A DNA stretch of 64,000 nt from Glaciihabitans sp. (lineage in GTDB: Bacteria; Actinomycetota; Actinomycetes; Actinomycetales; Microbacteriaceae), in NCBI GenBank assembly GCA_025464095.1, contig JAODMF010000020.1, forward strand, positions 124,001 through 188,000. The letters run 5' to 3'. Below, one piece after another: positions 1 through 21,548 of this stretch (the stretch's first letter is position 1; each line of letters opens with the position of its first letter). Position numbers and translations under genes: made by a program. The notes beneath the pieces were generated by a model. It had not been told where the DNA came from and did not search any database. It saw nothing but the letters and a program-made list of their open reading frames with translations.

Positions 1-536
1 AAGGTCAATAGCCGCACCCGCAGTCCGACCGAATCAATAAGAGCACTTCCTGCGTCGACACGTACACGGGGTCGCGTGCGGTGGTCGAGGGATTTCAACC
101 TCTCATGCAGTTGGGCATCAACGGCCCAAGCATGGTAGTCAGCAAGGAAGGTCGATGCCGCTTCGGCGCTCGCTCGCGATGTCTTTCCGCTGAACAGCCT
201 GCGTACTCCAAACTTCACCTTCACGTCGCGGCAGGCCGCCGCCACGTGGGTTGCGAGTGCCGAAAATGCGTCAGCATCCGACGAGGACAATGCGGACAGA
301 GCGGTCTGGCGTTCTAATGCCTCGAGCGAGTCCGAATCTTGTTCGCGTAATGGCAGAATTCTCCATTGAACGCCATCGTCATAAACTTCGACGGTGAGGT
401 GACGCAAGGCGAACTCCGCCCGATCGGCCTCCGCCGCGATTCGATTCCGGTCGTTGGAGATCGCTTCAGCCAGGTTGGACCACGACGAGATCTCAGCGGT
501 AAGGTCCTTTATTTGCTTTGTCGGGCTTTGCGCCAT
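1..536 (-). CDS. Hypothetical protein, C-terminus beyond left edge
   Basis: An open frame of at least 178 codons runs off the left edge without a stop. It starts at an ATG preceded by GAGGA seven bases upstream, and an in-frame TGA lies just before that, so the start is well fixed. The N-terminal 45 residues are rich in Ala, Glu, Arg and Ile and could form a helical or coiled-coil segment. No catalytic motif or signal peptide is visible, and I do not recognise the family. It lies in the decayed element and reads away from the ssb wreck. Confidence 0.5.
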   Translation of the reverse strand, partial: MAQSPTKQIKDLTAEISSWSNLAEAISNDRNRIAAEADRAEFALRHLTVEVYDDGVQWRILPLREQDSDSLEALERQTALSALSSSDADAFSALATHVAAACRDVKVKFGVRRLFSGKTSRASAEAASTFLADYHAWAVDAQLHERLKSLDHRTRPRVRVDAGSALIDSVGLRVRLLT

Positions 537-953
537 CGATCCTCATTGGTCATCGGAAAGGCCATTGAAACGTCAAGGCTGCATCGCACAGGCGGCGCAC
601 GACTCTCGGATCCTGAGAACACCTTATGTCTCGGCACCGGCAGGCAGTGCAGTGGGCCCCTTAATAGATCACTTCGCTAGTGAGGGGTGTGGTCGCACGT
701 CTCGCTAGCAGCCGCTTCGTACTCGACCAAAAAGGTGTGAGCGTCGCGGGCGCTGATCGGTCACCGCTGCGGTCGCCGAGTGGAGACAGAGGTTTCCACC
801 TATTTCGTGGCGACATCCCAGCGCGAGAATATGACGGTGGTCCCCTCCGGCTCGAAGGCGAGGCACCTGACAGAGAACCACGCGGTCGTCGTGCCGTGGA
901 TGTCCGCAAACTGCGAACGCGTTCACCGGGCTGGCGACGGCGGATGCTGCCGG
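537..953. other. Gene-poor degraded stretch
   Basis: No intact gene is supported here. On the minus strand, short coding-like pieces appear in different frames. One of about 35 codons (roughly 912-805) ends in FSRWDVATK and a stop. A second of about 26 codons (around 757-680) ends in CDHTPH and a stop. They look like small genes broken by frameshifts downstream of the ssb wreck, but neither family is recognised. Confidence 0.3.
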
Positions 954-1460
954 TCATGATGTCCTTCCTCTCGAGGGATGTCCTGTGGCGCAGTGAGGCG
1001 GATGGTTCCCCGACCATTTCGGCCAGGGAACCGTGCTGTCAGTCCTGCGTGGCGCCCAGTGCAATTGGCCCTGCTGCGTCTTTGGACTCTGCCGGAATGC
1101 TGCCCCGACCGTGCGAGTGAAGACTCCCGCTCCCCACAAGAGGTCGTGACCGATTGCTTCGGCCTCTACCTCGATGTGTATTCCAGTTCGTTCGTCGCTC
1201 TCCCATTCCCTGATGCGGAGCTTGCCAACGACGAGGATGCGGTCGCCCTTGTCCACGGATTCTGCGGTGTGGGCTGCGAGCTGGCGGAATGCCGTCACTG
1301 TGTACCAATTGGTCTCCCCGTCGATCTACTTCTCAGCCGAGGTGTCGAACCGGCGCTGTGTTGAGGCGAGACGGAACGAAGTGATAGGCAGCCCTTCGCT
1401 TGTGACGATGTGGCGCGGCTGGGTGGCAACCAACCCAGTGATGGTGATGTGGCCTGACAT
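954..1460 (-). pseudogene. ssb: Single-stranded DNA-binding protein, nonsense-mutated
   Basis: The minus strand encodes an SSB/OB-fold protein in one frame: MSGHITITGLVATQP, then TSFRLASTQRRFDT, WYTVTAFRQLAAHTAES, KGDRILVVGKLRIREW and IEVEAEAIGHDL. The start ATG at 1460 has AAGGAG upstream. An in-frame TAG at 1326-1328 falls between Lys and IDGETNW, where related proteins as I recall them carry Trp; TGG to TAG is a single-base change. SSB similarity ends near codon 120. The rest lacks the usual acidic C-terminal tail, so there may be a second lesion. Plasmid and ICE ssb genes assist transfer or replication. A restart at the GTG of VTAFRQL would lose the first OB-fold strands. Confidence 0.75.
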
Positions 1461-1795
1461 GGTGTTGCTCCTTCAATTGACGTATTCTTTCTGCCTTCCG
1501 GCACCCAGAGATAAGAAGCGGTAAGGAGGAGACCGCAATGGTCCGTGGAATACAGGAGTGAGCGCAGCGAGCGAGGATACGCCGCGAAAGCCGTTGAGGT
1601 CGGGGAAATTGGCGCGCATGATCGCCCAGTGAGGAGGGCAGAGGCTTGTGAGAGTTGCAGCGCGCCGTCAGGTGCTCCGCAAGGGCGTCACGATGCCGGC
1701 TTGTTCGTTGCCTGGTGAGGCTTTGGAACTCCACGCACACACGCTTGGAGAGTCGCGTCTTGACAGTGCGCCATGAGGCTCCCCAAACTTTGCAC

Positions 1796-2440
1796 ATGTG
1801 GAGTCCCGAGGAATACGACAACCACGTCCTAGAGGCCCGAAGCGGCGACGTCCAAGCGATGTTCCAGGTGGCGGTCTTTCACAATCGTCGCGGCGACATG
1901 GACGAGGCGCACGAGTGGTTCGAGAAAGCCGCGAATGCCGGAGCGATCGAAGCCCGGGCCTACCTCGGATGGGTCTACAAGATGAAGGACCTTCCGGATG
2001 AAGCCATCAGGTGGACCCGCCAAGCCGCTATGGACGGGAACGATAACGCAAAGGTCATGCTCGACATGCTTCTCAACCCGTCGGACGACTCGCGTCCCGA
2101 GATCGTGGCGATGGCGCACATGTCGAAATTGATGGGGGACGCAGCCGCCTCGCTGGGCAACTGGGCGCAGGCTCGAGATGGCTGGTACCGAGCGGCCGAC
2201 ATGGGCAATCTGGAAGCGATGACCCTGATGGGCCGTCTAGAAGAACAAGAGGGTGCCGCCGGTGCCGCGATCCTGTGGCACGAGAGAGCCGCTCTTCGAG
2301 GGTCCAACGAAAGCATGCTCCGCCTCGGGGGGATCCATCACCGGCGCGGCGACGCAAGCCTCGCACGCGAATGGTTCACCGTCGCGGCAGAGTCAGGCAA
2401 CACCGAGGCGGAGAAAATCCTTTGGGCGCTGCCTGACTAG
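1796..2440 (+). CDS. Sel1/TPR-repeat protein
   Basis: This 214-residue protein is built of Sel1-like helical repeats of about 36 residues: EARSGDVQAMFQVAVFHNRRGD, EWFEKAANAGAIEARAYLGWVY, GWYRAADMGNLEAMTLMGRL and EWFTVAAESGNTEAEKIL. Such solenoids act as protein-interaction scaffolds, and no enzymatic domain is attached. It has no signal peptide, so it is probably cytosolic. I chose ATG 1796 because the repeats begin just after it; a GTG at 1766 is equally open and neither has a clear ribosome site. It stands alone between the ssb and parB wrecks, and its partner is unknown. Confidence 0.65.
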   Translation: MWSPEEYDNHVLEARSGDVQAMFQVAVFHNRRGDMDEAHEWFEKAANAGAIEARAYLGWVYKMKDLPDEAIRWTRQAAMDGNDNAKVMLDMLLNPSDDSRPEIVAMAHMSKLMGDAAASLGNWAQARDGWYRAADMGNLEAMTLMGRLEEQEGAAGAAILWHERAALRGSNESMLRLGGIHHRRGDASLAREWFTVAAESGNTEAEKILWALPD

Positions 2441-2587
2441 CGGACTAGCGTGGAGTATTGCGCCATCCGCAGGATCAATGAAGTTCCGGCAAGACAGCCT
2501 GGGGAGTGTGAGGGGGCGGCAAGCGACCCTCACCGCCGGCACGGCGATGGTCCCCCACCGAAGTCAGGGGCCACGAACCCGGGGGCT

Positions 2588-3657
2588 CTACTCGCTGGTG
2601 AGTTCCTCGGCTGTTTCAGGGGCGCTGGACTCGGCGGTCTTCTCAGTTGCCGCGTCGAGCGCGATCTGCTCGACCTCGGATGCCGCATACCCCCACTCGA
2701 CCAACTGGACGAAGTAGGCCGCTGCGATTCCGGTCGGGTTGCGCCACGTGTCCTTCGTCACATGCGACTCGATGCCGCCGACAACGACCGCAGCGCGATC
2801 TGCGGCGCTCGGGTTCGGCTGCTCTGCACGATCGCACCGAGCTTGTCGGGTGCCCAATAGCCGCTGTTGTTTTCGATGCCGAGCAGGGCGTGGGCGAGCT
2901 CGTTTCCGCGGCCCATCGCATCCGAAACGTGACTGCGGAACTGCGTCACACCGAGGGCGACGAACTGCCCGGCGTTGCGCGGCATGGTCTTCCGCGATAG
3001 GAGGGTCGTCAGCCATTCGCGGCGAACGACCTCGGCTGAGGCCCACTCCTTGTTGTTGGCGATCAGTTCTCGCCGTGCGGCCTTGTCCTCGTCGGACATC
3101 GGCCCGCTCGCGCTTCCGCTGCTATCGGACTTGCGGAACCCGAGGTCTTTGAAGTCAGCGACGTAGTAGATCACTTCGACTTGTCCGCTGTAGAAGCTGC
3201 GCACGAACGCCGCCCGGTCGGCCGCCTCGGCAATGTCCTCGATGGTGACTCGCTCACCGTCCTTGCTGAGGAGGTTGCTGATGCGGGTGTGGTCGGTGTC
3301 GTAGTAGCCGGGATCACTTTCGAGGATCGTGAATCCTTTCTCGCGAAGCTCCACACAGGTTTGCGCCAGCTGCTCGGCGAGAGCCTTCTCGTCTCTTGCC
3401 CGCTGCGCGGTGTGGGCGAACTGCTCGGGCTGCTTGGTCGCAACCTCGATCAGCGACGCGACTGTGTCATCCTCGCCCTCGGACTCGATCAGGTCGGCAG
3501 CCTGATCCATCGTCAGCTGGTGCTCCGCGATCGCGGTAGTCGCGAATGGGTTCTCGGCCACTTTCAGACCTTGCTTCACCTGCGCTTGCTTGGTCGCCGT
3601 GCGGCGGGCGATCACCTGCGGGGTGAGTCCCTCGAACGCCAACTGCCTTGCGTACAA
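2588..3657 (-). pseudogene. ParB-like partition protein, truncated and frameshifted
   Basis: What remains begins with the helix-turn-helix part of a ParB/Spo0J-like protein (LAFEGLTPQVIARRTATKQ, QVKQGLKVAENPF) followed by a long C-terminal domain. The ParB nuclease-like N-terminal domain is missing: homology stops near 3690, where an in-frame TGA lies upstream. The frame breaks again near 2822. One frame ends shortly after (SSRM stop at 2758), while the natural continuation (AAVVVGGIESHVTKDTW to ETAEELTSE) is in the next frame and stops at 2588. Two independent lesions make a functional protein unlikely. ParB proteins segregate plasmids and large integrative elements, which fits this region's origin. 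Confidence 0.65.
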
Positions 3658-3959
3658 GCGGTCTCGACGCAGCGTTCCGCGACCCTTGGTTCAGTGGATA
3701 CGAATCAGAACCGAGGTGGCTGCGGCTCGCGGCAAGCGAGGCCGGAGTTCGCTGCATCAACTCCGGTTTCGAGCTTGACCCGCCGCTCGACGAGCGTCTC
3801 GCGGCGAGATTCAAGCAGGTTTGCGACGAGCATGGTGCGGTCGATGGGGCGTTTCTTCCGGTGACTCAGGTCGATCGCGACGGCCACCTCGTCGATACTG
3901 AGGACCGCGTCCAGAAATGCGCGGGGTTCCTCAAGGATCTAGTCGCTGCTGGGCTTTAG
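3648..3959 (+). CDS. Unrecognised gene fragment
   Basis: An open frame whose last 60 codons look protein-like (DERLAARFKQVCDEHG, DTEDRVQKCAGFLKDL, stop after VAAGL). Its 5' part overlaps the truncated end of parB on the other strand, so it is probably the 3' remnant of a gene cut by the same rearrangement. There is no ribosome site or recognised domain. The opposite strand is also open across 3705-3887, so even the strand is uncertain. Confidence 0.25.
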   Translation: MRTSGLDAAFRDPWFSGYESEPRWLRLAASEAGVRCINSGFELDPPLDERLAARFKQVCDEHGAVDGAFLPVTQVDRDGHLVDTEDRVQKCAGFLKDLVAAGL

Positions 3960-4059
3960 GGTCTACTCTCACCGTGACCCAGCGGGATGACCCGCCGAAA
4001 ATGTTGGTGGTCGGGCCTACCCTTCAGGCAGGCATCCACCGCTACCAAGGAGCGAAACT

Positions 4060-4533
4060 ATGGCGAAGTCGGTCTTTTACAGCTTTCACTACGAACGCGA
4101 TGTCAATCGTGTTCAGCTTGTGCGCAACATCAACGCGCTCGAAGCTCAGCCTTTCTTGAACGCCCAGAACTGGGAGGCCGTCCGTAGGGGAGGAAAGTCG
4201 GCCATCGAGAAATGGATATCAGACGAAATGGCCTATAAGAAGGCCGTTATCGTCCTTATCGGCAAGGAGACGGCCGGCCGCGAGTGGGTCAACTACGAGA
4301 TCAACAAGGCTTGGGCTGAACGGAAGCCTTTGCTCGGCGTTCGCATCCATGGCCTCTCATCCTTTGGTGCCGCGGACAGCGCGGGTGCGAGCCCGTTCTC
4401 AACGGCGTCAGGGATCCCCGTCTTCGATCCAACGGTGAAGGACTACTTGGGAAACATCGATACGAAGGCTACCTACAAGAAGTTGACGGAGAATCTCGAG
4501 TACTGGTCGGGCCAAGGTGTTGTCAAGCCATGA
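4060..4533 (+). CDS. TIR-like (MTH538/ThsB-type, DUF1863) protein
   Basis: This 157-residue protein matches the TIR-like DUF1863/MTH538 family, which includes ThsB of Thoeris defence. Visible features are the first strand and loop VFYSFHYERD (5-14), the strand AVIVLIG (62-68), the WVNYEI motif with Glu80 as candidate catalytic acid, and LLGVRIHG (91-98). Known ThsB proteins use NAD+ to make a cyclic-ADPR-type signal after phage infection. AAGGAG lies seven bases before the ATG. The stop overlaps the next start (ATGA at 4530), coupling it to a HIT gene. No ThsA (SIR2-SLOG or macro-TM) is adjacent. The fold is a confident call; the signalling role is inference. Confidence 0.8.
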   Translation: MAKSVFYSFHYERDVNRVQLVRNINALEAQPFLNAQNWEAVRRGGKSAIEKWISDEMAYKKAVIVLIGKETAGREWVNYEINKAWAERKPLLGVRIHGLSSFGAADSAGASPFSTASGIPVFDPTVKDYLGNIDTKATYKKLTENLEYWSGQGVVKP

Positions 4534-4973
4534 CCGAACTCGACTGCCCATTCTGCGAGATCGTTCAACTCGAAGATCCCGATGCCAGGGAAGTATTTCG
4601 AAATGAGCACGTTATCGCCTTCTTCCCCACTGAGCCCGCGACCCTAGGTCACACGCTCGTGATACCCCGCAAGCACATCGCTGGCATCTGGGAAATCGAC
4701 GACGCGACCGCAACTCAGTTGAGTCGGGTTACCCTGAAGCTTGCACATGCAATAAGAGATGCCGTCAAGCCAGAGGGATTGAACCTGATCCAATCAAATG
4801 GAGAAGCCGCGACACAGACTGTCAACCATTTGCACATCCATCTTGTGCCGCGATGGGAGAGTGACGGCATTGGCCGCATATGGCCGCGGGAAACCAACTT
4901 CTCGGAGCGTCAGAAGGATGATGCGTTAGAGAGGGTCCGGGATGCTCTTCGAATTGGAATGGCTAAGGGATGA
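4530..4973 (+). CDS. HIT-family nucleotide hydrolase
   Basis: This 147-residue histidine-triad protein carries the HxHxH triad in NHLHIHLVPRW (His100, His102, His104), the N-terminal CPFCEI pair and LGHTLVIPRKH. HIT enzymes hydrolyse or transfer nucleotidyl groups on substrates such as Ap4A, AMP-NH2 or dinucleoside polyphosphates. It overlaps the TIR-like gene by four bases, so the two are almost certainly co-translated. In this context it may process or degrade the nucleotide signal made by the TIR protein; that is inference. It converges on, and overlaps by 11 bases, the membrane-protein gene on the other strand. Confidence 0.85.
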   Translation: MTELDCPFCEIVQLEDPDAREVFRNEHVIAFFPTEPATLGHTLVIPRKHIAGIWEIDDATATQLSRVTLKLAHAIRDAVKPEGLNLIQSNGEAATQTVNHLHIHLVPRWESDGIGRIWPRETNFSERQKDDALERVRDALRIGMAKG

Positions 4974-5409
4974 GCGTTAGCGCGATGACGATCACACCTA
5001 CAGCAGCCACGGGAAGATAAAAACCCGCCAAAGACCACGACCAGATGATCTTTCGCCAGCGGCAGTTCTCCTCCCGGCGATCCTTTTTGTCGTCGTTGGG
5101 CTTGCCATAAAACGCCCTGCTGTTCATGTCATACACACGACCACGGCCACGCGACGCCCTGCTGAACAGCGCGCGGAAAGCACGTTCTTCTCTCAGGTAT
5201 CGCGCGTCAAGAAACGCAAACAAGCAAACGGCCGCGATGCCGAGCCCAGCTACCCGGGTGTCGTGATTCGCGAGGGCGTATCCGTAGGTTGCGGTCGCTA
5301 CAGGAAGGAGCCATGTCTTGGCCCTGGATGATGCGTAAGCCATCCGTGCAATCGCAGACTGGAGTTGTTCCAAGTGAAGCCTGCGATCGTCGCTAAGTTT
5401 GTTGCCCAT
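4963..5409 (-). CDS. Small multi-TM protein (SLATT-like architecture)
   Basis: This 148-residue protein has a charged N-terminal helix (about 5-30), two closely spaced hydrophobic helices (about 33-67), a charged middle (70-122, rich in Arg, Lys and Asp) and a C-terminal hydrophobic helix (about 128-147). The layout resembles SLATT-type membrane proteins, which are proposed effectors in nucleotide-signal defence systems; I infer this from layout and hydropathy only. The gene faces the TIR-HIT pair and overlaps the end of the HIT gene by 11 bases. It could be the effector of that pair or an unrelated neighbour. Confidence 0.65.
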   Translation of the reverse strand: MGNKLSDDRRLHLEQLQSAIARMAYASSRAKTWLLPVATATYGYALANHDTRVAGLGIAAVCLFAFLDARYLREERAFRALFSRASRGRGRVYDMNSRAFYGKPNDDKKDRREENCRWRKIIWSWSLAGFYLPVAAVGVIVIALTLIP

Positions 5410-5482
5410 CTCGAAATGTTCTCATGGTCGATGGCGGGCGACGTCGCAATTCCTGACGAGGTGCGGGGATGCCGCGAGTCTC

Positions 5483-5683
5483 CTACTCAGAGACCATCTC
5501 CGCTCCGCCATCGCCAGTGGGGGGCTTAGCCGGCGGCGGGACGTAGGCGACGGGTTGAATGCCGTGCTCCTCGACATGCCGAACCTCTGGTCGTGCCACC
5601 GGGGTTGCACTCGGCTTAGCCGGGTAGGCAACGCCGAGCAGCGCGCTCGGCTTGGACTGTGGATCCTTAGGCTCGTTTGACAT
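5483..5683 (-). CDS. Small Pro-rich protein
   Basis: A 66-residue protein starting MSNEPKDPQSKPSALLG with Pro-rich, low-complexity sequence (PPPAKPPTGDGG) and no membrane segment. The start ATG at 5683 lies 17 bases inside the end of the DUF6338 gene, so the two are an operon with likely translational coupling. An upstream start at 5716 would lengthen the overlap. The function is unknown; it probably serves as an accessory to the membrane protein before it. Confidence 0.55.
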   Translation of the reverse strand: MSNEPKDPQSKPSALLGVAYPAKPSATPVARPEVRHVEEHGIQPVAYVPPPAKPPTGDGGAEMVSE

Positions 5684-6368
5684 CGTCCTCTTCCTCGGAT
5701 GTGTTACGCCATTCAACTACGTCGCCGTCGGTGACCGATAGCCAAAGCCCCGTACTTCCGGCGACTGGTTCGACGAAAGCTCCCCTGTCGGTCATGACCC
5801 ACTGCTGCGCGAGAAACAAATCGCGAGCCTCCGGATACGTGCTTACGAACGAACCCTTGGTGTACCAGCCGCCGATCCAAGATCCGTCCGATCTCTTGAC
5901 CCGAACGAAACTGCCGTTGCCCGCAGTGCGCCAAGCGAAGTCCCAGCCGTTCGGGACAGGGCTGTACCCATGCCTACGCGCGGGCCTCTTCAACTTTGGG
6001 ATCCTCTTGCCGATCCAGCCACCGACCGAGATCCACTGGATTCTGCAATAGAAGATCAGCGAGATGGCCAAGGGAGCAAGAACAGCGAACATTAGGACGT
6101 TTGCACCGACGGCGCCAGGGTCAGTCACTCTGACCACATCCGCTGCTGGATCCACCGTAAGCCCGTCAGCCAAGTGACTGCCCCAGAGCCAGAAGTATGC
6201 AGCGTTAAGGACCGTGCTGAACAACAGCGCCTGCGCCAGCACCGTCGCGGTATCTCGGTCAGAGCTGCGTGCGCCCTCGAAAACCTTGCGGACGGCGATA
6301 AAGATCAATCCGGGAAGGGCCAACGCGACAAATGTCGCAATCGCGAACGTGGTGCTCGGAACGCCCAT
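5667..6368 (-). CDS. DUF6338-family membrane protein
   Basis: This 233-residue protein has three hydrophobic helices (about 6-26, 42-62 and 88-108) and a cytosolic C-terminal domain with the family pattern: NGWDFAW, FVRVKRSDGSWIGGWY, STYPEARDLFLAQQW and a late SVTDGDVVEW. The C-terminal half looks like a small beta-rich domain. AAGGGG precedes the ATG. The family is uncharacterised as far as I know. Its place in an accessory element beside a TIR-like cluster makes a role in element maintenance or defence possible, but nothing in the sequence proves this. Confidence 0.7.
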   Translation of the reverse strand: MGVPSTTFAIATFVALALPGLIFIAVRKVFEGARSSDRDTATVLAQALLFSTVLNAAYFWLWGSHLADGLTVDPAADVVRVTDPGAVGANVLMFAVLAPLAISLIFYCRIQWISVGGWIGKRIPKLKRPARRHGYSPVPNGWDFAWRTAGNGSFVRVKRSDGSWIGGWYTKGSFVSTYPEARDLFLAQQWVMTDRGAFVEPVAGSTGLWLSVTDGDVVEWRNTSEEEDDVKRA

Positions 6369-6458
6369 CGAGACCCCTTCGATTGATGTTCTTGGACTCT
6401 ATCCGGCCGTCTCGTCGCACGTCGGGAGCCTTGCGGGCGATCTGAATTTGCTACAGAT

Positions 6459-6478
6459 GTGGGCAAAGTGTGGGCAAA
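6459..6478. repeat. Paired GTGGGCAAA motif near tRNA-Arg
   Basis: Two GTGGGCAAA copies, at 6459-6467 and 6470-6478, are spaced 11 bp apart. The complementary pair TTTGCCCGC/TTTGCCCAC at 26952-26971 has the same period and stands the same 71 bp from the 3' end of tRNA-Thr. One helical turn between copies suggests an integrase arm or accessory-factor site. Part of the likeness could come from shared integrase coding sequence. Confidence 0.45.
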
Positions 6479-6587
6479 CCCACCGCGAGGGAGGGACCAG
6501 AGCCGCTAGATCCCAGTGTTTATAGGGAATTCTGAGGGAAATCCGAAGTGCCCCTGGAGGGACTCGAACCCCCAACCCTTTCCTTAG
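6459..6587 (+). pseudogene. Tyrosine-integrase C-terminal remnant
   Basis: In this frame the plus strand reads DVGKVWANPPRGRDQ, an internal TAG at 6507, then GNPKCPWRDSNPQPFP and a stop at 6585, inside the tRNA-Arg gene. RDSNPQPF is the typical last segment of integrases that use a tRNA 3' end as att. The integrase in the tRNA-Thr island ends SDSNRRPPLYK in the equivalent place, and VGK also matches its SVGKLRAK. The catalytic domain is gone, so this is a scar of the enzyme that inserted the left element. Confidence 0.55.
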
Positions 6588-6620
6588 GACGGAACTGCTC
6601 TTCCATTGAGCTACAGAGGC
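6549..6620 (-). tRNA. tRNA-Arg(CCU)
   Basis: The minus strand folds as a cloverleaf: acceptor GCCTCTG pairs with CAGGGGC, the D arm is GCTC/GAGC, the anticodon loop is GTCCTAA with anticodon CCT, and the T arm is GGGGGTTCGAGTCCCTC. CCA is not encoded. It marks the boundary between the accessory region and the core. The 3' half doubles as a presumed integration target, because an integrase remnant reads into it from the plus strand. Confidence 0.9.
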
Positions 6621-7605: not shown

Positions 7606-8406
7606 TCAGATGCCGAAACGCACTATGTAGAAGTTGGTTGTGTAGATCGCGTGGTTGCCGACGGTTCGTCCGGGCATGGGCGCGTCGATCATCCGGTTGC
7701 CACCCAGGTAGATGCCGACGTGGCTGCCACCGTCGATGACGACAACGTCGCCGGGACGCGCGGCCGATAGTGCGATCCTCGTGCCCGCCGCGCCCTGCGC
7801 CGACCCGGAGTGCGGCAGCGAGATGCCGAACTGCGCGTACACGTAGGCGACGAGCCCGGAGCAGTCGAACCCCGAGGGGCTCTCGCCTCCGAACACGTAG
7901 GGCGTTCCGGTGTAGCGCTCGGCAACGGAGACGACTTTCGCCAGGCTGAAGTGCGGCTGCGGCGGGTGCGCCAGAAGCGCGCCCAGGTTCGGGCCGGCGG
8001 CGAGTGCTGCGACCCGAACGGCCGCCCGCTTGCGCTGCAGGGCGGCGACGCTGGTGGCACCAATCGTGTCCCGCGACGCCGAGGGCACCGCGGCCGCGGT
8101 GAGCGCGACATCCATCGTGACCGTCTGCGATTTTGCCGCGAGGGTCTGCTCACGCTGCGCCGACGTCGACGCGGATGCGGTGGCCTGGCCGGTCGACGCG
8201 GCCCCGCTGGTCGCGGCGTACGCCGGCAGCGCCACCGTGGCGAACAGGCTCGGAACCACCAGGGCGGTGACCGCGAGGCTGAGGATGCCCGATCTGCGAG
8301 CCGCGCGGCGCGGCGCGCGAAAGACAGACTCCGCGGGAAGGCCCTGCGAGTCAGAAGGCTGGACCTGCTCGACGCTGCGAGGCGTTGGTCGTGAAAGGGA
8401 AGTCAT
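7606..8406 (-). CDS. Secreted NlpC/P60 peptidoglycan endopeptidase
   Basis: This 266-residue protein has a long N-terminal region with a hydrophobic export signal (SLAVTALVVPSLFATVALPAYAA), an Ala/Thr-rich linker, and a C-terminal NlpC/P60 domain. The domain has catalytic Cys in FDCSGLVAYVY, His in GGSHVGIYLG, and the third polar residue in the NHAIYTT segment. These enzymes cut stem peptides of peptidoglycan in cell growth and separation. It is a close paralogue of the gene just upstream: the catalytic domains align along their length. The 132-base gap between them holds a perfect hairpin, so the two may be separate transcripts. Confidence 0.9.
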   Translation of the reverse strand: MTSLSRPTPRSVEQVQPSDSQGLPAESVFRAPRRAARRSGILSLAVTALVVPSLFATVALPAYAATSGAASTGQATASASTSAQREQTLAAKSQTVTMDVALTAAAVPSASRDTIGATSVAALQRKRAAVRVAALAAGPNLGALLAHPPQPHFSLAKVVSVAERYTGTPYVFGGESPSGFDCSGLVAYVYAQFGISLPHSGSAQGAAGTRIALSAARPGDVVVIDGGSHVGIYLGGNRMIDAPMPGRTVGNHAIYTTNFYIVRFGI

Positions 8407-8507
8407 TCGTCGTATCCGTTCCTGCGCGACGAGGCGCGCATAGGAACCCCGAGTGGTCAGGGCGACTGCAAGAGGAGGGGCGCGAGAGCACCACAGGAGA
8501 ATCGATC

Positions 8508-8532
8508 GCCGGTGGGCACGAGGCCCACCGGC
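8508..8532 (-). terminator. Hairpin between the NlpC/P60 paralogues
   Basis: A perfect 10-bp stem (GCCGGTGGGC / GCCCACCGGC) with a five-base loop lies six bases past the stop of the upstream NlpC/P60 gene on the minus strand. There is no long U-tract, which is usual for actinobacterial terminators. Confidence 0.65.
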
Positions 8533-8538
8533 AAACGG

Positions 8539-9192
8539 CTACTTCCTAAAACGAACGAGGTAGTAATTGTTCGTGTAGATCTTGTGGTTGCCCACCGTGC
8601 GACCCGGCATGGGTGCGTCGAACATGCGACCGTGTCCCATGTAGATACCCACGTGCGAGCCACCGTCGATCACGACGACATCGCCGGCGTGAGCCTGCGA
8701 GCGCGCGACGCGGTAGCCCTTGCGGCCCTGCGCGACACCGGAGTGCGGCAGGCGAATACCGACATGGCGGTACACGTACGCCACGAAGCCGGAGCAGTCG
8801 AAGCCGTGGGGGCTCTCGCCGCCGTAGCGGTAAGCGACTCCGTGGTAGCGCTTCGCGAACTTCACGACGCGCTTGTGAAGGTTCGGCTTCTTCTTGTGGT
8901 GCTTCACCGCGGTCGTCGCCGGAGCGACGGCGGTCGTTGTGACCGCCAGCTGCGCTACCGAGACCGACTGCGAGGTCGACGCCGGTGTTGCCGCCGTCGC
9001 CGGAGCCGCGGTTGCGAGGAGTCCCGGGATCACCAGTGCGGTAACCGCCAGACTCAGGATGCTGGCCCTGCGGCCAGGTGAGGTTCGCTTCGTGAACGCC
9101 GAATCCGGGTTCGAACTGTTGTGAGCGAGTGAACTATCAGTGTTCGTTTGTTCGCAAACTGGTTGCGATTTCGTTGTTCCTATTTTTGTCAA
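8539..9192 (-). CDS. Secreted NlpC/P60 peptidoglycan endopeptidase (paralogue)
   Basis: This 217-residue protein has an export signal (SLAVTALVIPGLLATAAPATAA), a short Thr/Ala linker with a basic KHHKKKPNLHKR patch, and an NlpC/P60 domain with Cys in FDCSGFVAYVYRH and His in GGSHVGIYMG. The start is taken as TTG 9192, with AGGAG nine bases upstream. That TTG begins TTGACA, which could also act as a -35 element, so a later start cannot be excluded. The basic linker may bind anionic wall polymers. Tandem duplication with the gene at 7606 is clear from the shared SPxGFDCSG, PHSG and DAPMPGRTVGNH blocks. Confidence 0.88.
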   Translation of the reverse strand: MTKIGTTKSQPVCEQTNTDSSLAHNSSNPDSAFTKRTSPGRRASILSLAVTALVIPGLLATAAPATAATPASTSQSVSVAQLAVTTTAVAPATTAVKHHKKKPNLHKRVVKFAKRYHGVAYRYGGESPHGFDCSGFVAYVYRHVGIRLPHSGVAQGRKGYRVARSQAHAGDVVVIDGGSHVGIYMGHGRMFDAPMPGRTVGNHKIYTNNYYLVRFRK

Positions 9193-9404
9193 GAGTCATG
9201 CTCCTGCGCCTCGGCGACACTAGGTCGTCGCCCCATCACGTTCCGTATGTATATTCACGTCCCACACCGAAAGACAGGTAAACGAGACGTCTCGGGCGGG
9301 GCCTCGGGCCGGGCTGACTGGCGGCGAGGACGCGGCTACGTTACGGGAATGTTATGCAGGTGTCCATTCCTGTGCATAAATCTCGGGTGGGAAAACCCTG
9401 TGAA

Positions 9405-11425
<2,021 letters not shown>

Positions 11426-11538
11426 CGCCATAGGCTGGCATCATGCGCCTGTGGCTGAAAGACAGCGAACGACGACCGGACCCGAAGCCGGTGAAGACGG
11501 ATGACCGCAAGGCTCTCGTCGTCGGCCTCGCTGGCTGG

Positions 11539-12259
<721 letters not shown>

Positions 12260-12267
<8 letters not shown>

Positions 12268-12640
12268 CGAGGTCGTCGGCAACCTTGCGCAGAACGGCCG
12301 CAATCTTGCCGCCGTGATTCTTGTCCGGGTAGCGTCCGCGCTTGAGGCCGGAGCCAATTCCATCGAGAAGCTTGACGAGGTCCTCCACGATGACGGCCAT
12401 GTCATCCGCGGACTTTCGATTGAGCTTCGCCATGGTCGGCGGGGCCTCGAGAACGCGCACAGAGAGCGCCTGCGCACCCTTCTTGCCGTCGGCAATGCCG
12501 AACTCGAGCTTGGATCCCGGCTTCACAGTAACGCCAGCGGGAAGCGCCGAGGCGTGCAGAAAGACCTCCTGGCCATCATCCGAACTGATGAACCCGAAGC
12601 CTTTTTCGTCGTCGTAGAACTTGACCTTGCCGGTAGGCAT
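12260..12640 (-). CDS. Cold-shock-domain protein with C-terminal extension
   Basis: A 126-residue protein: an N-terminal cold-shock OB fold with RNP1-like KGFGFIS and RNP2-like VFLHASAL, then about 60 extra residues (MAKLNRKSADDMAVIVEDLVKLLDGIG...) likely to be helical. CSD proteins bind single-stranded RNA or DNA. The extended form is common in actinobacteria beside DUF3027. It starts the operon with DUF3027 and is divergent from the small membrane protein at 12718. Confidence 0.85.
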
Positions 12641-12717
12641 CCCAGTACCTCTTCCACACCGAGCAGTTCACGGTGCCCCATAAGGATACGGGGTGCAGCT
12701 ACCCCTATCCTTGAGGG

Positions 12718-12993
12718 GTGCCAAAAGATCCCGCAACCGCCGTGCCGCTCACCCGGCCGCAACGCTCGCTGGCGTTCATGACGGTGGCCATCGTCGGCCT
12801 CTCGCTCGTGTCAATCGTGGCGCTGCTCATTGGCGCAGCGGCGGGCGCAGCACCCCATTTCGCCGAGGGCCTGTGGCCCGTCGTGCGCATCCTTCCCCTC
12901 ATCGGGCTTCCGATCGGCGTTCTGCTCATCGTGGTGTTTTTTGTGCTGACCGCCGTGCATCGTGGCGGAGCGGCCAAGGGTGACGGCAAGTAA
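12718..12993 (+). CDS. Small two-helix membrane protein
   Basis: This 91-residue protein has two long hydrophobic helices (about 19-44 and 54-81) and short charged ends; the family is unknown. The GTG start follows TATCCT (12706-12711) by six bases with no Shine-Dalgarno, again suggesting a leaderless transcript. Its end overlaps the start of the helicase-associated gene, so the two are probably co-transcribed. Confidence 0.65.
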   Translation: MPKDPATAVPLTRPQRSLAFMTVAIVGLSLVSIVALLIGAAAGAAPHFAEGLWPVVRILPLIGLPIGVLLIVVFFVLTAVHRGGAAKGDGK

Positions 12994-14887
12994 CACCTCC
13001 ACGCTGACGCTGGCTGCTCGCCTGCGAAGCATGGGTGACGCGGAGCTCACCGAACTGATCACAGTTCGCGAGCTTCGTGAGTCGCGCATCAAGGACTTCT
13101 TCGACCTCGCTGAGGCGCTCCTCGATCCCTCGTCCGTGCAGGAAGCTCTCTCACACCTCGATCGCGCCTCGCTTGTCTCCATCGCGCTCGTGGGCGAATG
13201 GCCGGATGCTGCGGGCCCGACCACGGCGGAGGTCGTGACGCGCCAATCCGAACTGCTCGAGTCGGCGCCGGCACGCGACGGCGCACGCGAGCGCCTGCCC
13301 GCGACGGTCGCTGTCGCGCTCGAGCACGCACGCGCGCTCGCGCTGCTCGAACTCGACGGCGAGCGCTGGAGCGCCTATGCGCCCGTCGCCGACCAGCTCG
13401 CCGGGTGGCCAAGGGTCGGGTTGCCCGACACCAGGGCGCTCGCCACCGAACCACCGCCGGCCGGGCTGGAACTGGTCAGCGCCGCAGACATGCGCTTCAT
13501 CGACCACGGGGCCGCCGAGCAGGCGTTTGCGACCACGACCGCGATCGCCGCCCTACTCGCCGAACTGCAGGGAGAACCGGCCCGCGAGCTCGCGCGCGGC
13601 GGCATCGCGCTGCCCGACGCGAAGCGCCTCGCCGCGGCCATGTCCGTCGACATCGACGCGGTGCCGAGCCTCATCGCGATCGCCTCCCGCGCCGACCTAA
13701 TCGCACTCGATGCGGCCCAGTGGCTGCCGACCGCGGAGGCGCTCGGGTGGATGCTGCGGGCATCCGCCGAGCGCTGGGAATCGCTCGCGGGGGCCTGGTT
13801 CGGTCGCCTGCCTCCCGACATCCGCACCCTGCTCGCGGAGCGCGCCCACGCCACCTGGGGCACGCGCTTCGGCGACTACCTGCGCTGGCTGTACCCGGCC
13901 GGCGGCGACTGGATGCGCGACCGCGCGAGCGCGTACATGCGCGACGCGGAGCTGCTGGGCATCACCTCGAACGCGGCACCGAGCACCGCAGGCACGGCCC
14001 TGCTCGAGCGCGGCCCGGCCGCCGCGGCAGCCGCGATGCTGCCGCTGTTCCCCGCCGAGGTCGACCGCGTGTACGTGCAGCACGACCTCACCATCGTCTC
14101 CCCGGGTCCGCTGTTGCCGCGGCTGGATGCGCGCCTGCGCGAGTTCGCCGACGTCGAGAGCCGCGCGCTCGCCACCACCTACCGCGTGAGCCAGGCCAGC
14201 CTGAACCGGGCCATGGCGGCGGGAGCGACGGCGACCAGCCTGCGAAGGGTGCTCTCCGAGATATCGCTGACCGGCATCCCGCAGCCCCTCGATTACCTCA
14301 TCACCGGCACGGCCGCGCGCTACGGCACGGTTCGCGTCGGCTCGATCACTGGCTCGCCCGACCCCTCCGCGCGCACCTACGTCAACGCCGACGACGCCTC
14401 CGTGCTGAACGCGATCCTCGTCGACCACAGCCTGGGCGCGCTCGGCCTTACCCGGGTCGGCCCGCACCGCGCGGCGAGCCGCTTCGACCTCGACGTGGTC
14501 TTCTGGGCGCTGAACGATGCCCGGTACCCGGTCGCCGCGGAGGACGCGCACGGATCGATCGTCGTGCTGGAGCGGCGGCGGGTCGCCAAGCCGCCGGCTG
14601 CGGCATCCGAACCGTCCGGTGTTGCGCTCGTGCGACGGCTGCGCGAGGGCGGGGATCCGACCACCGAGCAGACCGGCCAGGCCTGGCTCGAACGCCAGCT
14701 CGATATGGCGATCAAGGGCAAGCTCGGCCTGACCGTGACGGTGCGGATGCCGGACGGCTCCCTGCTCGACCTGCAGCTCGAGCCCGCGAGTGTTGCCGGC
14801 GGGCGGTTGCGCGCGCGGGACCGCAAGTCCGACCTCGAGCGCACGCTCCCGCTGTCCAGCATCGCGGCCGTCGCGCCCCCGCAGTGA
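12980..14887 (+). CDS. Helicase-associated (Helicase_C_3-type) protein
   Basis: A protein of about 635 residues, Ala/Arg/Leu-rich, of the actinobacterial helicase-associated family always found beside the XPB-like helicase. It lacks Walker motifs. Recognisable parts are an N-terminal ARLRSMGDAELTELITVR wing and a C-terminal domain with VYVQHDLTIVSPGPL, STYRVSQASLNRA-like helices and IPQPLDYLI. It probably acts as a DNA-binding partner of the helicase 43 bases downstream. I chose GTG 12980 because GGAGCGG stands seven bases before it; GTG 12962 is also open. Confidence 0.8.
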   Translation: MTASNTSTLTLAARLRSMGDAELTELITVRELRESRIKDFFDLAEALLDPSSVQEALSHLDRASLVSIALVGEWPDAAGPTTAEVVTRQSELLESAPARDGARERLPATVAVALEHARALALLELDGERWSAYAPVADQLAGWPRVGLPDTRALATEPPPAGLELVSAADMRFIDHGAAEQAFATTTAIAALLAELQGEPARELARGGIALPDAKRLAAAMSVDIDAVPSLIAIASRADLIALDAAQWLPTAEALGWMLRASAERWESLAGAWFGRLPPDIRTLLAERAHATWGTRFGDYLRWLYPAGGDWMRDRASAYMRDAELLGITSNAAPSTAGTALLERGPAAAAAAMLPLFPAEVDRVYVQHDLTIVSPGPLLPRLDARLREFADVESRALATTYRVSQASLNRAMAAGATATSLRRVLSEISLTGIPQPLDYLITGTAARYGTVRVGSITGSPDPSARTYVNADDASVLNAILVDHSLGALGLTRVGPHRAASRFDLDVVFWALNDARYPVAAEDAHGSIVVLERRRVAKPPAAASEPSGVALVRRLREGGDPTTEQTGQAWLERQLDMAIKGKLGLTVTVRMPDGSLLDLQLEPASVAGGRLRARDRKSDLERTLPLSSIAAVAPPQ

Positions 14888-14930
14888 CCCTTCCCCAGCT
14901 TGTGCCAAGCCGCTCGCGTAGGCTGGGCGG

Positions 14931-16586
14931 GTGAATTTGCCCGACGGACCCCTGATTGTTCAAAGCGATCGGACCGTCCTCCTCGAGGTAGCGCATCCGC
15001 TCGCCGAAGACGCCCGCCACGACCTCTCGGTGTTCGCCGAACTGGAACGCGCGCCCGAGCACATCCACACCTACCGCATCACGCGCCTCGGCCTCTGGAA
15101 CGCCCGCGCCGCCGGCCACTCGGCGGAGGACATGATTGCCACCCTCACGCGGTACAGCCGCTTCGCGATTCCGCAGAGCGTCTCCGTCGACATGGTGGAG
15201 ACCGTCGGGCGCTACGGCCGGCTCGTGATCGACCGGGCTGACGACGGCGTGCTCACACTGACGGCGACGGATGCCGCGGTTCTGGCCGAGATCTCCCGCG
15301 GTCGCAAGGTGGCCGGCCTGCTCTTCGAGAAGCGCGGCCCGCACACGTACGTGATCCAGCCGTGGGCTCGCGGGCAACTCAAGCAGGAACTGCTGAAACT
15401 CGGCTGGCCCGCAGAGGACCTCGCCGGCTACACCCCCGGCACGCCGCACGCAATCGACCTGGATGAGACCGGCTGGGCACTGCGCGACTACCAGAACAAG
15501 GCGGTCGCCAACTTCTTTGAGCACGGCTCCGGCGTCGTGGTTCTCCCCTGTGGCGCGGGCAAGACCCTGGTCGGTGCTGGTGCGATGGCCGTCGCAAAGA
15601 CGACCACGCTCATCCTGGTGACCAACACGGTTTCCGCCCGCCAGTGGCGCTCCGAGCTGCTGAAGCGCACTTCGCTCACCGAGGACGAGATCGGCGAGTA
15701 CTCGGGGCAGGTCAAGCAGGTGCGCCCGGTCACGATCGCGACCTACCAGATTCTCACCGCGCGGCGGCAGGGCGAATACACGCACCTGGCGCTGCTGGAT
15801 GCCCTGGACTGGGGCCTCGTGATCTACGACGAGGTGCACCTGCTGCCCGCTCCCGTGTTCAAGCTCACCGCGGAACTGCAGGCACGCCGGCGGCTCGGGC
15901 TCACCGCGACGCTCGTGCGCGAGGACGGCCGCGAGGGCGACGTGTTCAGCCTCATCGGACCGAAGCGATTCGACGCTCCGTGGAAGGAGATCGAGGCGCA
16001 GGGGTTCATCTCGCCGGCATCCTGCTACGAGGTTCGCATCGACCTGCCGGAGCAGGAACGGCTCGAGTACGCGGCATCCGCCGACGACGAGCGCTACCGG
16101 CTGGCGGCGACCGCGCCGGCGAAACTCGGCGTGGTCAGGCAGCTGGTGAAGCGCCACGAGGGCGAACGGATCCTCGTGATCGGGCAGTACCTCGACCAGA
16201 TCGATGAGCTGGCGGAGGCGCTGCACGCACCCAAGCTCACCGGTGCGACCTCCATCGATGAGCGCGAGCGGCTGTACCAGGAGTTCCGCGACGGCATCAC
16301 GAAGGTGCTCGTCGTCTCCAAGGTCGCGAACTTCTCGGTCGACCTGCCGGAGGCGACCGTCGCCATCCAGGTCTCAGGGTCATTCGGGTCGCGGCAGGAA
16401 GAGGCACAGCGCCTCGGTCGCCTGCTGCGCCCGAAGGAGAGCGGCCTGCCGGCGAACTTCTACACCCTCGTTGCTCGCGACACCGTCGACCAGGATTTCG
16501 CCCAGAACCGCCAGCGCTTCCTCGCGGAGCAGGGCTACAGCTACACGATCCTCGACACCGACGACCTCGACGCGGTCGCCGCGTAA
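14931..16586 (+). CDS. XPB-type DNA repair helicase
   Basis: A 551-residue SF2 helicase of the bacterial XPB family: N-terminal damage-recognition-like domain (1-175), Walker A LPCGAGKT, the DEVH box in YDEVHLLPA, motif III LTATLV, and a C-terminal RecA domain with motif VI EEAQRLGRLLRPK. It uses ATP to unwind DNA in repair or transcription-coupled processes. TAGGCT at 14919-14924 lies six bases before the GTG start, suggesting a leaderless mRNA even though it lies downstream of its helicase-associated partner. The gene is followed by a large inverted repeat. Confidence 0.92.
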   Translation: MNLPDGPLIVQSDRTVLLEVAHPLAEDARHDLSVFAELERAPEHIHTYRITRLGLWNARAAGHSAEDMIATLTRYSRFAIPQSVSVDMVETVGRYGRLVIDRADDGVLTLTATDAAVLAEISRGRKVAGLLFEKRGPHTYVIQPWARGQLKQELLKLGWPAEDLAGYTPGTPHAIDLDETGWALRDYQNKAVANFFEHGSGVVVLPCGAGKTLVGAGAMAVAKTTTLILVTNTVSARQWRSELLKRTSLTEDEIGEYSGQVKQVRPVTIATYQILTARRQGEYTHLALLDALDWGLVIYDEVHLLPAPVFKLTAELQARRRLGLTATLVREDGREGDVFSLIGPKRFDAPWKEIEAQGFISPASCYEVRIDLPEQERLEYAASADDERYRLAATAPAKLGVVRQLVKRHEGERILVIGQYLDQIDELAEALHAPKLTGATSIDERERLYQEFRDGITKVLVVSKVANFSVDLPEATVAIQVSGSFGSRQEEAQRLGRLLRPKESGLPANFYTLVARDTVDQDFAQNRQRFLAEQGYSYTILDTDDLDAVAA

Positions 16587-16602
16587 CTGCGGCACTCCGC
16601 GT

Positions 16603-16664
16603 CTGTTCCCGCCCGGCACGAATGTGCCCGCGCGCCCGGGCACATTCGTCCCGAACGGGAACAG
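16603..16664 (+). terminator. Two-tier inverted repeat after XPB helicase
   Basis: The outer arms CTGTTCCCG / CGGGAACAG (16603-16611 and 16656-16664) enclose the inner arms ACGAATGTGCCC / GGGCACATTCGT (16618-16629 and 16638-16649), all perfect. It begins 16 bases past the helicase stop and lacks a T-run. It probably ends the helicase transcript. Confidence 0.65.
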
Positions 16665-16734
16665 AACCACGGCGGTCAGGATGCGAGCCGACGGCTCTCA
16701 GGATTCGCCCAGCGAACGCGCAGATACTTGCCGC

Positions 16735-17427
16735 ATGAGTGATGGACCCAAGATCCTTATCGTCGACGACGAGCCCAACATCCGCGACCTCCTGAGCACG
16801 AGCCTCCGCTTCGCCGGATTCGCCGTTCGCGCCGTCGGAAACGGTGCCCAGGCGATCTCCGCCGTGCTCGAGGAAGAGCCCGACCTGATCATCCTCGACG
16901 TCATGCTTCCCGACATGAACGGCTTCGGCGTGACCAAGCGCCTGCGCGCATCCGGGTACACCGCGCCGATCCTGTTCCTGACGGCGAAGGATGACACGGA
17001 AGACAAGATCACCGGCCTCACCGTCGGGGGCGACGACTACGTCACCAAGCCGTTCAGCCTCGACGAGATCGTTGCCCGGCTGAAGGCGATCCTCCGCCGC
17101 ACGATGCACGACGACGAGGAAGCCGTCATCCGTGCCGGCGAGCTCACCATGGACCAGGACACCCACGAGGTAACCGTCGGCGCCGAGCAGATCGAGCTCA
17201 GCCCGACCGAATTCAAGCTGCTCCGCTACCTCATGCTCAACCCCAACCGCGTTCTGTCGAAGGCGCAGATCCTCGACCACGTCTGGGAGTACGACTTCAA
17301 TGGCGACGCCGGAATCGTGGAGAGCTACATTTCCTACCTGCGCCGCAAGCTCGACCAGTTCTCCGAGGAGCCCATCATCCAGACCAAGCGGGGCTTCGGG
17401 TACATGTTGAAGGCGGCCAAGGTTTAG
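16735..17427 (+). CDS. OmpR-family response regulator
   Basis: A 230-residue protein with a receiver domain (acidic DDE, phosphoacceptor Asp55 in LIILDVMLPD, the conserved Lys in KPFSLDE) and a winged-helix output domain (LSPTEFKLLRYLMLNPNRV, SYISYLRRKLD, KRGFGYML). It is paired with the histidine kinase that starts 12 bases downstream, so they are one operon. A GATACT box ends six bases before the ATG. The stimulus is unknown; the layout is like the mycobacterial PrrA/TcrX type. Confidence 0.92.
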   Translation: MSDGPKILIVDDEPNIRDLLSTSLRFAGFAVRAVGNGAQAISAVLEEEPDLIILDVMLPDMNGFGVTKRLRASGYTAPILFLTAKDDTEDKITGLTVGGDDYVTKPFSLDEIVARLKAILRRTMHDDEEAVIRAGELTMDQDTHEVTVGAEQIELSPTEFKLLRYLMLNPNRVLSKAQILDHVWEYDFNGDAGIVESYISYLRRKLDQFSEEPIIQTKRGFGYMLKAAKV

Positions 17428-17439
17428 CCTTGCTGACCT

Positions 17440-19095: not shown

Positions 19096-19136
19096 CCCGC
19101 GCACCGGCAGGGCGGGCGCTGCATACGCTCGCCCGC

Positions 19137-19427
19137 ATGACTCGATACCAGGTAGACAGTGAAGCGGTTCTGGCGGCGACCGGCGCGGTGCGCGCATCCA
19201 TTGGCCGCATCCAGACCGAGGTGAGCGGCCTGCAGGGGCAGCTCACCGGCCTCAACGACTCGTGGAGCGGACAGGCCGCCAGCGCGTTCCAGGCGGTCGC
19301 GGCCGACTGGCACACGACGCAGCTGCGGGTGGAGGAGTCGCTCTCCGCGATCAACCAGGCCCTCTCGCTGGCTGCACAGCAGTACGCCGACGCCGAGTCG
19401 AGCAACGCGCGGCTGTTCGCCCGCTAG
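19137..19427 (+). CDS. WXG100-family protein
   Basis: A 96-residue helical-hairpin protein with the central turn motif WSG (LNDSWSGQAASAFQ) and a C-terminal AAQQYADAESSNARLF, matching the ESAT-6/WXG100 family of type VII secretion substrates. No type VII secretion ATPase or partner WXG gene is in the window, so it is an orphan. TACGCT at 19124-19129 lies seven bases before the ATG (leaderless pattern). Downstream, 19430-19500 is a low-complexity CGACCG-rich stretch. Confidence 0.85.
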   Translation: MTRYQVDSEAVLAATGAVRASIGRIQTEVSGLQGQLTGLNDSWSGQAASAFQAVAADWHTTQLRVEESLSAINQALSLAAQQYADAESSNARLFAR

Positions 19428-19600
19428 CTGCGCCAGGGCGGTCGCGACCGACCGCTCGACCGCTCGACCGCCCATCCGTCCGTCCGTTCGCGCGACCGAC
19501 CGCTCCGCGCGAGGTGAACCGACCCTAGTTGTCGCTTTGGCGTCGCGATACCGACAACAAGAGTCGGGTGGCCATGGTCGGCGGGCTACTCAGAACCGTT

Positions 19601-19639
19601 AAACGCCGAAAGGCGGCCCCCTGAGGGACCGCCTTTCGG
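19601..19639 (-). terminator. groL terminator
   Basis: The perfect 11-bp stem CCGAAAGGCGG / CCGCCTTTCGG (19606-19616 and 19629-19639), read on the minus strand, is followed by CGTTTAAC. It lies 70 bases past the groL stop. Confidence 0.8.
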
Positions 19640-19709
19640 TTGAACTGGCAAGCGTGGACCGGTCTCGGCGAGCTCGACCGTTACGCTCAGGCGCTGGCGC
19701 GCCTTTGGA

Positions 19710-21401
<1,692 letters not shown>

Positions 21402-21428
21402 TTAGCACTCAACAGAGGGGAGTGCCAA
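21402..21428. promoter_or_regulatory. CIRCE operator 1 (HrcA site)
   Basis: TTAGCACTC, nine bases, then GAGTGCCAA: one mismatch from the CIRCE consensus TTAGCACTC-N9-GAGTGCTAA. It lies 64 bases upstream of the groL start, where HrcA would block transcription until heat shock. Confidence 0.92.
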
Positions 21429-21436
21429 AAAGTATT

Positions 21437-21463
21437 CTGGCACTCCCCTGTGCCGAGTGCAAG
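21437..21463. promoter_or_regulatory. CIRCE-like operator 2
   Basis: CTGGCACTC, nine bases, then GAGTGCAAG: a weaker copy of the same inverted repeat, starting eight bases after the first. Together they form a tandem HrcA operator with centres 35 bp apart. Confidence 0.7.
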
Positions 21464-21491
21464 GCGAGCCGCCCCTCGCCGAACAAACGAA

Positions 21492-21524: not shown

Positions 21525-21548
21525 GACGTCGGGATGAGCGGTGCGCGA

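Follow-up and report, generated by a model that had tools for sequence, protein, structure and literature searches.

Features of the tRNA-Arg(CCU) Locus

The window analyzed here is a stretch of 64,000 nucleotides (C23:124001-188000) from a genome of 2.5 Mb that is assembled in 29 contigs and is 83% complete. Near its left end lies a tRNA-Arg(CCU) gene with the following surroundings (positions prefixed C23 are those of the contig, all others those of the window).

1-6547: right end of the island at tRNA-Arg; the remainder, C23:93930-124000, lies left of the window
1-536, minus strand: part of an 876-aa DpdE/DrmD-like helicase, C23:121906-124536 (PADLOC DpdE, 874.9 bits; Pfam)
4060-4533, plus strand: ThsB-like TIR protein, cargo (PF08937, E 2e-26; PADLOC ThsB)
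4530-4973, plus strand: HIT-domain protein overlapping the TIR gene, cargo (PF01230)
5667-6368, minus strand: DUF6338 protein, where an integrase would be expected (PF19865)
6459-6478, plus strand: predicted near arm-type pair GTGGGCAAA-GT-GTGGGCAAA, 69 bp off the tRNA 3' end (family-wide pattern)
6548-6571, minus strand: att repeat, the tRNA 3' end; the same 24 bp recur at C23:93906-93929, 36.6 kb leftward
6548-6620, minus strand: tRNA-Arg(CCU), integration target (ARAGORN)
C23:94033-94052: predicted far arm-type pair of the same island, 103 bp inside the far att copy

The word GTGGGCAAA occurs at 6459-6467 and again at 6470-6478, a direct repeat with the 11-bp period that the original prediction had described. 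No other perfect 9-mer direct repeat at lag 11 exists within the 64-kb window. The word has four matches in the window versus 0.27 expected, and none of 100 shuffles reached four or more. It had also been predicted that tRNA-Arg is an old integration site, and a search to the left for a second copy of its 3' end had been proposed. A whole-genome search (up to three mismatches) finds exactly one further copy, 24 bp identical, at C23:93906-93929, and the length between the two copies is 36,618 bp. The pair inside this far copy reads GTGGGCAAA-AT-GTGGGCAAA. Paired half-sites thus flank the core on both sides, at 69 and 103 bp, spacings also seen in related elements, and tRNA-Arg is indeed an occupied site. 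As the second att copy 36.6 kb to the left has its own arm pair, window positions 1-6547 represent the right end of the island. Bases 1-6548 had been taken for an integrase-borne import; the import is supported, and this stretch makes up one end of an island of 36,618 bp that reaches 30 kb beyond the window on its left side. A further, inverted copy (TTTGCCCAC) lies directly ahead of the far pair, at C23:94020-94028 (L006:10020-10028).

The island combines accessory defense cargo (Pfam, PADLOC) with low GC, 0.588 compared to 0.672 in window positions 8000-26000; the left flank is likewise low (0.577). Besides the genes listed above, the cargo includes an nSTAND3-Mrr protein, a complete HmaA/HmaB/HmaC set, the DpdE/DrmD-like helicase, an LmuB-like ATPase, a SIR2-domain protein, a PNP-superfamily effector-like protein and a HipA-like kinase (Pfam, PADLOC). 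The Hma set occupies C23:110555-121909 (L007:6555-17909), with the HipA-like kinase between HmaB and HmaA. The ThsB-like TIR and HIT-domain genes (4060-4973) overlap by four bases, and no ThsA was seen adjoining the TIR gene; the two may possibly form a TIR system in which a nucleotide hydrolase is the partner. The island is a further example of an already known kind of tRNA-inserted element, and with it a full Hma-type defense block appears to have reached this genome via an element of a known integrase class.

The tRNA-Arg Site in Related Genomes

We fetched 20 relatives at tRNA-Arg and scored 19, leaving out L077 for its short tRNA match; L058 extends 131 bp beyond the tRNA. The pair is present in five of the 19 (L063, L065, L066, L070 and L071), 68-71 bp off the tRNA end, and an integrase of the arm-pair family lies within the fetched stretch in these five and in none of the others. 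L070 and L071 show the att copy and the far pair as well, and in L063, L070 and L071 the integrase adjoining the tRNA is displaced or fragmentary. In same-family genomes the distance from the 5' end of tRNA-Arg to an HNH gene ranges from ~100 bp to several kilobases, differing by genus.

Comparison with strains whose tRNA-Arg site is empty had also been suggested, and among the 20 relatives none is both close and empty with the same left flank. When the 9.9-kb stretch bordering the far att copy on its left was compared with the tRNA-Arg regions of the 20 relatives, no counterpart was found except the serine recombinase of L061. The reverse search of the left flank returned merely transporter-like or other paralogous matches and integrases, and the samples searched contained no other genome of the window's genus. 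The island boundary is placed by the 24-bp repeat together with the arm pairs.

Other Integration Sites in the Same Genome

A degenerate form of the pair pattern (three mismatches) matches nine places in the whole genome, compared to none for the reversed control. Seven of the nine lie next to an att copy or the 3' end of a tRNA (two att copies were judged by repeat or by eye), and the remaining two have no tRNA within their 3-kb locus. One of these sites, at tRNA-Thr(UGU), lies within the window.

26808-26883, plus strand: tRNA-Thr(UGU), second occupied site (ARAGORN)
26819-27925, minus strand: tyrosine integrase ORF, 368 aa, without the arm-binding domain, which is upstream in another frame
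26840-26882, plus strand: tRNA-Thr att repeat, 43 bp (other copy at 31533-31575)
26952-26971, minus strand: predicted near arm-type pair of the tRNA-Thr element
31423-31442, minus strand: predicted far arm-type pair belonging to the tRNA-Thr element, separated by 90 bp from the att copy
31533-31575, plus strand: far att copy of the tRNA-Thr element

This element measures 4.7 kb and has arm pairs at both ends. The same motif pair as at tRNA-Arg had been predicted here, at exactly 71 bp from both tRNAs. The pair is present (26952-26971), one half with one mismatch, and the spacing is near-equal rather than twice 71, with 69 bases at tRNA-Arg and 68 at tRNA-Thr. The tRNA-Thr integrase, described as living, is not clearly so, given that its 368-aa ORF lacks the arm-binding domain encoded upstream in a different frame. 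This split between the catalytic ORF and the arm domain (window 26819-28075) may reflect either a genuine mutation or a fault in the assembly.

At tRNA-Leu(UAA), the pair is accompanied by an integrase-like fragment (read by eye), and the pair at tRNA-Arg equals this one over 25 bp. The original prediction tied the tRNA-Arg island to the integrase of the tRNA-Thr element; given this identity with the Leu pair, and a half-site class that is the commonest of all, kinship to the Thr element in particular is no more than a possibility. tRNA-Met(CAU) has a truncated integrase and a GTGGTCAAA variant of the pair, and another pair lies at what is left of a tRNA-Arg(ACG) end, a decayed copy (judged by eye). 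No intact integrase of the arm-pair family was seen in the 83%-complete assembly. On contig C25, L009:502-594 holds four copies of TGTGCCCAC with a 28-bp period, a layout unrelated to the arm pairs.

Probable Origin of an Island without a Detectable Integrase

The pair at 6459-6478 is very probably the integrase-side arm-type pair of a 36.6-kb defense island that a tyrosine integrase with a putative Arm-DNA-bind_4 domain put into tRNA-Arg(CCU) at its 3' end; the island is now without a detectable integrase gene. The catalytic part of such an enzyme would recombine the tRNA 3'-end core, as in bivalent phage integrases, while its N-terminal domain would grip the paired half-sites on both sides, the near one ~70 bp and the far one ~100 bp off the core. 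We infer that the integrase bound the arm words, as we do the past excision of the island and the manner in which the integrase was lost.

PF00589 has no match anywhere in the island (C23:93906-130571); its four matches in the genome lie on C12, C3 and C14 and at tRNA-Thr. The original prediction held that a decayed integrase tail is still legible in a frame that ends CPWRDSNPQPFP-stop inside tRNA-Arg, and had asked for the remnant to be aligned to tyrosine integrases. An open frame does end DSNPQPFP within the tRNA. It is open over a short stretch only, however, and no integrase similarity is found ahead of the CPWRDSNPQPFP tail. A tblastn search of the island with ten integrases produced no convincing hit, the best having E 0.003 at 28% identity. 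The peptide is the antisense of the tRNA T-arm: read on the opposite strand, all five tRNAs examined yield such a tail, namely DSNPQPFP for Arg(CCU), SDSNRRPPL for Thr, GSNPDWD for Leu, DLNPRHH for Met and DLNPRP for Arg-ACG. Five tRNAs giving a like peptide mean that the CPWRDSNPQPFP tail is no scar, and we give the decayed-tail reading almost no credence.

The lack of any detected integrase remnant in the tRNA-Arg island, when the Leu and Met sites retain fragments, would also fit a satellite that never had an integrase and was inserted in trans by an enzyme of the same half-site class encoded elsewhere, for example by the tRNA-Thr element, the tRNA-Leu element or a phage. The identity of the near Arg pair with the Leu pair over 25 bp fits such sharing as well. 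On the other hand, the core sequences differ among the Arg, Thr and Leu sites, and relatives at tRNA-Arg usually hold an integrase or a remnant, which favors loss and leaves the satellite reading rather unlikely. A truncated serine recombinase with an in-frame stop (C23:92604-93932; L006:8604-9932), whose frame runs into the far att copy, offers another candidate for the inserting enzyme, with the GTGGGCAAA pairs then being unrelated. Its PF07508 and zinc-ribbon domains (L006:8604-9506) lie just outside the far att copy, and the relative L061 also has a serine recombinase at tRNA-Arg. Yet the recombinase sits outside both att copies, and the arm pairs at both ends are spaced as in tyrosine-integrase elements. 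We therefore regard insertion by this recombinase as very improbable; more likely, the remnant belongs to an earlier insertion at tRNA-Arg. Its position outside the far att copy points to a region with a composite history, and together with L061 it suggests that two recombinase types may use the tRNA-Arg site.

Paired Half-Sites across the Integrase Family

We collected at least 80 loci with related integrases from named genomes, 62 of which face a tRNA (ARAGORN). Among the matches listed, a perfect 7-mer repeat at lag 11 occurs within the 140 bp before the tRNA 3' end in 59 of these 62 loci. Other lags from 9 to 30 are seen in 0-2 of the 62 listed loci, with the exception of lag 21, which forms a smaller second peak (8/62 among the same matches). 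The pair mostly ends 57-76 bp from the tRNA end, again among the 62 tRNA loci listed. In all 18 listed loci that show both att copies, a lag-11 repeat also forms a far pair (7/7 in 17 loci, 6/7 in one), located 82-113 bp from the att copy, compared to 103 bp in the tRNA-Arg island. The target tRNAs among the matches listed include Arg, Thr, Leu, Met, Phe, Ser, Val, Glu, Lys, Tyr, Ala and Asp. In 12 loci (for example L194, L209, L231 and L405), the arm pair near the integrase end is inverted (TGCCCACA), much as has been reported for pairs in Cluster K1 phages.

The exact word pair, with one mismatch allowed, is present in 54 of 199 family genomes and in none for the reversed control. Among the best 30 pair loci, 15 have a tRNA 59-73 bp beyond the pair. 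The integrase is near-complete in six of these 15, a fragment in five, and absent within 1.5 kb in four; in two of those four, an integrase lies 1.5-2.7 kb away by coordinates. With five fragments and four without an integrase among these 15 tRNA sites, integrase-less or damaged sites appear to be common. Island finders such as TIGER map by comparison with intact-site reference genomes, and the study in PMC10111431 began from integrase hits. Integrase-less islands may be missed by such approaches, given the need for intact-site references and the start from integrase hits, whereas the arm-pair word marks such islands directly.

A Candidate Code for Arm-Site Recognition

Half-site words vary between integrases and repeat within one site, and they covary with three residues of the integrase arm domain. 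We write the word as TG(T/C)-b4-b5-b6-CA and the residues as Y-[b5]-V-[b4]-Y and [b6]-KRGF; in Y-R-V-X-Y ... Z-K-R-G-F, X is the b4 residue and Z the b6 residue, and the b5 residue is called Y. Examples of the word classes are the TGTGGGCA-class (L137 integrase) and the TGTTGCCA-class (L083 integrase). A two-position rule (b4 by X, b6 by Z) was set down from integrase loci before testing. Further loci were then gathered from three partly shared sets of 80 viral places, the best 30 family loci and 60 stretches. From 381 loci, we dropped 78 without an arm-string match, 65 without a pair and 14 out of register, and the remainder collapse to 99 distinct arm strings. The 12 inverted-pair loci were counted as TGTGGGCA by a hand rule.

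Across the 99 arm strings, Arg at X goes with G at b4 in 76 of 78 cases, Leu, Ile, Ala, Ser or Val with T in 18/18, Gln with A in 2/2, and Asn with G in one. For Z and b6, the counts are D-G 54/54, E-G 3/3, Q-C 14/14, S-C 6/8, K-C 6/7, T-T 6/7, M-T 3/3 and R-C 2/3; for Y and b5, R-G 84/85 and M-C 6/7, with few others. The R/D combination accounts for 54 of the 99 strings and is the commonest half-site class, which includes the tRNA-Arg pair. Among 72 test strings outside the training loci, the rule holds for 67/68 covered at b4 and 57/59 covered at b6, and its non-G (non-majority) predictions for 9/9 and 13/15, respectively, although the test strings are related to those used for training. Mutual information, computed for 19 columns in 97 strings, puts X at the top for b4, Y for b5 and Z for b6. 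An extended rule, whose classes were fitted on all data, fits both bases in 94 of 99 strings, compared to at most 52 for shuffled words. The exceptions are L079 and L398 (Ser gives T in both), L285 and L225, and L121 looks like a register slip.

It could be argued that residues and words covary simply by shared descent, with no recognition involved; the strings are related, and the (R, D) combination makes up 54/99 of them. Tree-independent pairs, drawn from a core-domain tree that excludes the arm, nevertheless agree in 11/11 cases at b6 (p 0.00098) and in about 6/6 at b4 (median p 0.031, resting on few independent switches), with about 4/5 for Z = T/M, which is not significant. Residues and bases also recombine across 20 residue combinations, and in closely related phages a difference at one arm base comes with a difference at the residue matched to it. 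Hence, shared descent by itself seems an improbable explanation.

Eight phages were examined, taken from the 60 records listed out of 77. The Gordonia phages Schmidt and Gsput1 (M, R, K) have TGTGCCCA or CGTGCCCA pairs on both sides, fitting the M-C and K-C trends; they fall outside the original two-position rule at b6. CrimD has Leu at position 19 with TGTTGATG, and Anaya has Arg at 19 with CGTGGATG, as does Adephagia in the pair found for it, so the three fit the code at b4. Position 19 of Cluster K1 is X and obeys the rule, whereas b5 stays the same when position 17 (Y) varies. The account of these phages in PMC3203893 gives one arm base, T versus G, and two integrase positions, 17 and 19; it also gives two T and two G sites for Adephagia, a mix that the code leaves unexplained. 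In IME1320_01, Asp at the b4 residue goes with C if the repeat is read in the code register (one case, with the register chosen). No pair was found in the phages Finkle and Poushou, and the integrases of Gaia, WXIN and BAKA carry a different arm domain.

Modeled with AlphaFold2 (35 sequences; pLDDT 80, pTM 0.62), the arm domain has strands at 3-9, 12-20 and 26-32 and a helix at 35-51. Residues 16 and 18 alternate on strand 2 of the three-stranded sheet, and residue 28 is on strand 3. Foldseek found no PDB match for the model at E <0.001, and the arm-domain alignment had no match to PDB sequences. VIA-align gave weak similarities to the AP2-DNA complex 6sy0 (Z 5.2, 2.9 A, 59 aligned) and to 1gcc (Z 4.4, 3.9 A, 51), and to the arm-type domain 3jtz (Z 3.4, 2.6 A, 50). 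With the PF14657 (Arm-DNA-bind_4) profile, L083 scores 24.4 against a cut-off of 22.3, L119 and L065 fall below it, and L092 and the window ORF have no match.

It is likely, judging from these sequence comparisons, that this large family of actinobacterial integrases recognizes arm sites through a direct-readout code of three residues and three bases. The half-site word would be set mainly by three residues of the N-terminal domain: at b4, Arg would specify G, small or aliphatic residues T and Gln A; at b5, Arg would specify G and Met usually C; at b6, Asp or Glu would specify G, Thr or Met T, and Gln, Lys and usually Ser C. Contacts such as Arg with G and Gln with A are general knowledge of protein-DNA recognition. 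Residue 18 may accordingly read the top strand at base 4 (Arg-G, Gln-A, T for small or aliphatic residues, possibly Asp-C). Base 5 would be read by residue 16, and base 6 by residue 28 via the opposite strand (Asp/Glu-C, Lys/Gln-G). If this is true, arm sites could be predicted from the protein, the integrase class could be inferred for islands without an integrase, and islands of the same class (here R/R/D) may share integrases in trans. Confirmation would answer how arm specificity is set and would allow integration vectors to be sortable to avoid cross-reaction.

Comparison with Known Systems

Several described systems share parts of this arrangement. The AICEs pSAM2 and pACPL are likewise reported to have a tRNA 3'-end att with arm repeats, and the pSAM2 integrase to bind its arm repeats; their repeat sequence is another, and pACPL retains int and xis (from the portions of PMC3364876 on these elements). 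The IntTn916 subgroup has an N-terminal arm-binding domain of three strands plus a helix, with no recognition code described in the corresponding part of PMC8138268. In Cluster J phages, attP has its core at a tRNA, ~100 bp from int, flanked by direct-repeat pairs, and the authors of PMC3706429 saw no systematic match of sites to domains; the word there is TGCATACG, and the arm domain is a different one.

In the open-access literature we found no published recognition code, and of 258 papers containing one of the half-site words, none of the 20 listed deals with integration. The nearest is PMC3203893, whose authors (Pope et al.) consider related integrases to be ill-defined in their specificity. 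As described there, the attP of Cluster K phages (CrimD, Anaya and Adephagia) resembles the sites reported here in having two arm-site pairs with 11-bp repeats around a tmRNA 3'-end core, and in that one base differs along with integrase positions 17 and 19, which are named as recognition candidates. It differs in host, target RNA and half-site word, and its right pair is inverted. The proposed code agrees with these published attP variants, and it generalizes the two-residue hint: in the relevant passages, PMC3203893 names its candidates from one case, whereas the 99 arm strings analyzed here link position 19 with b4 and a third position with b6.
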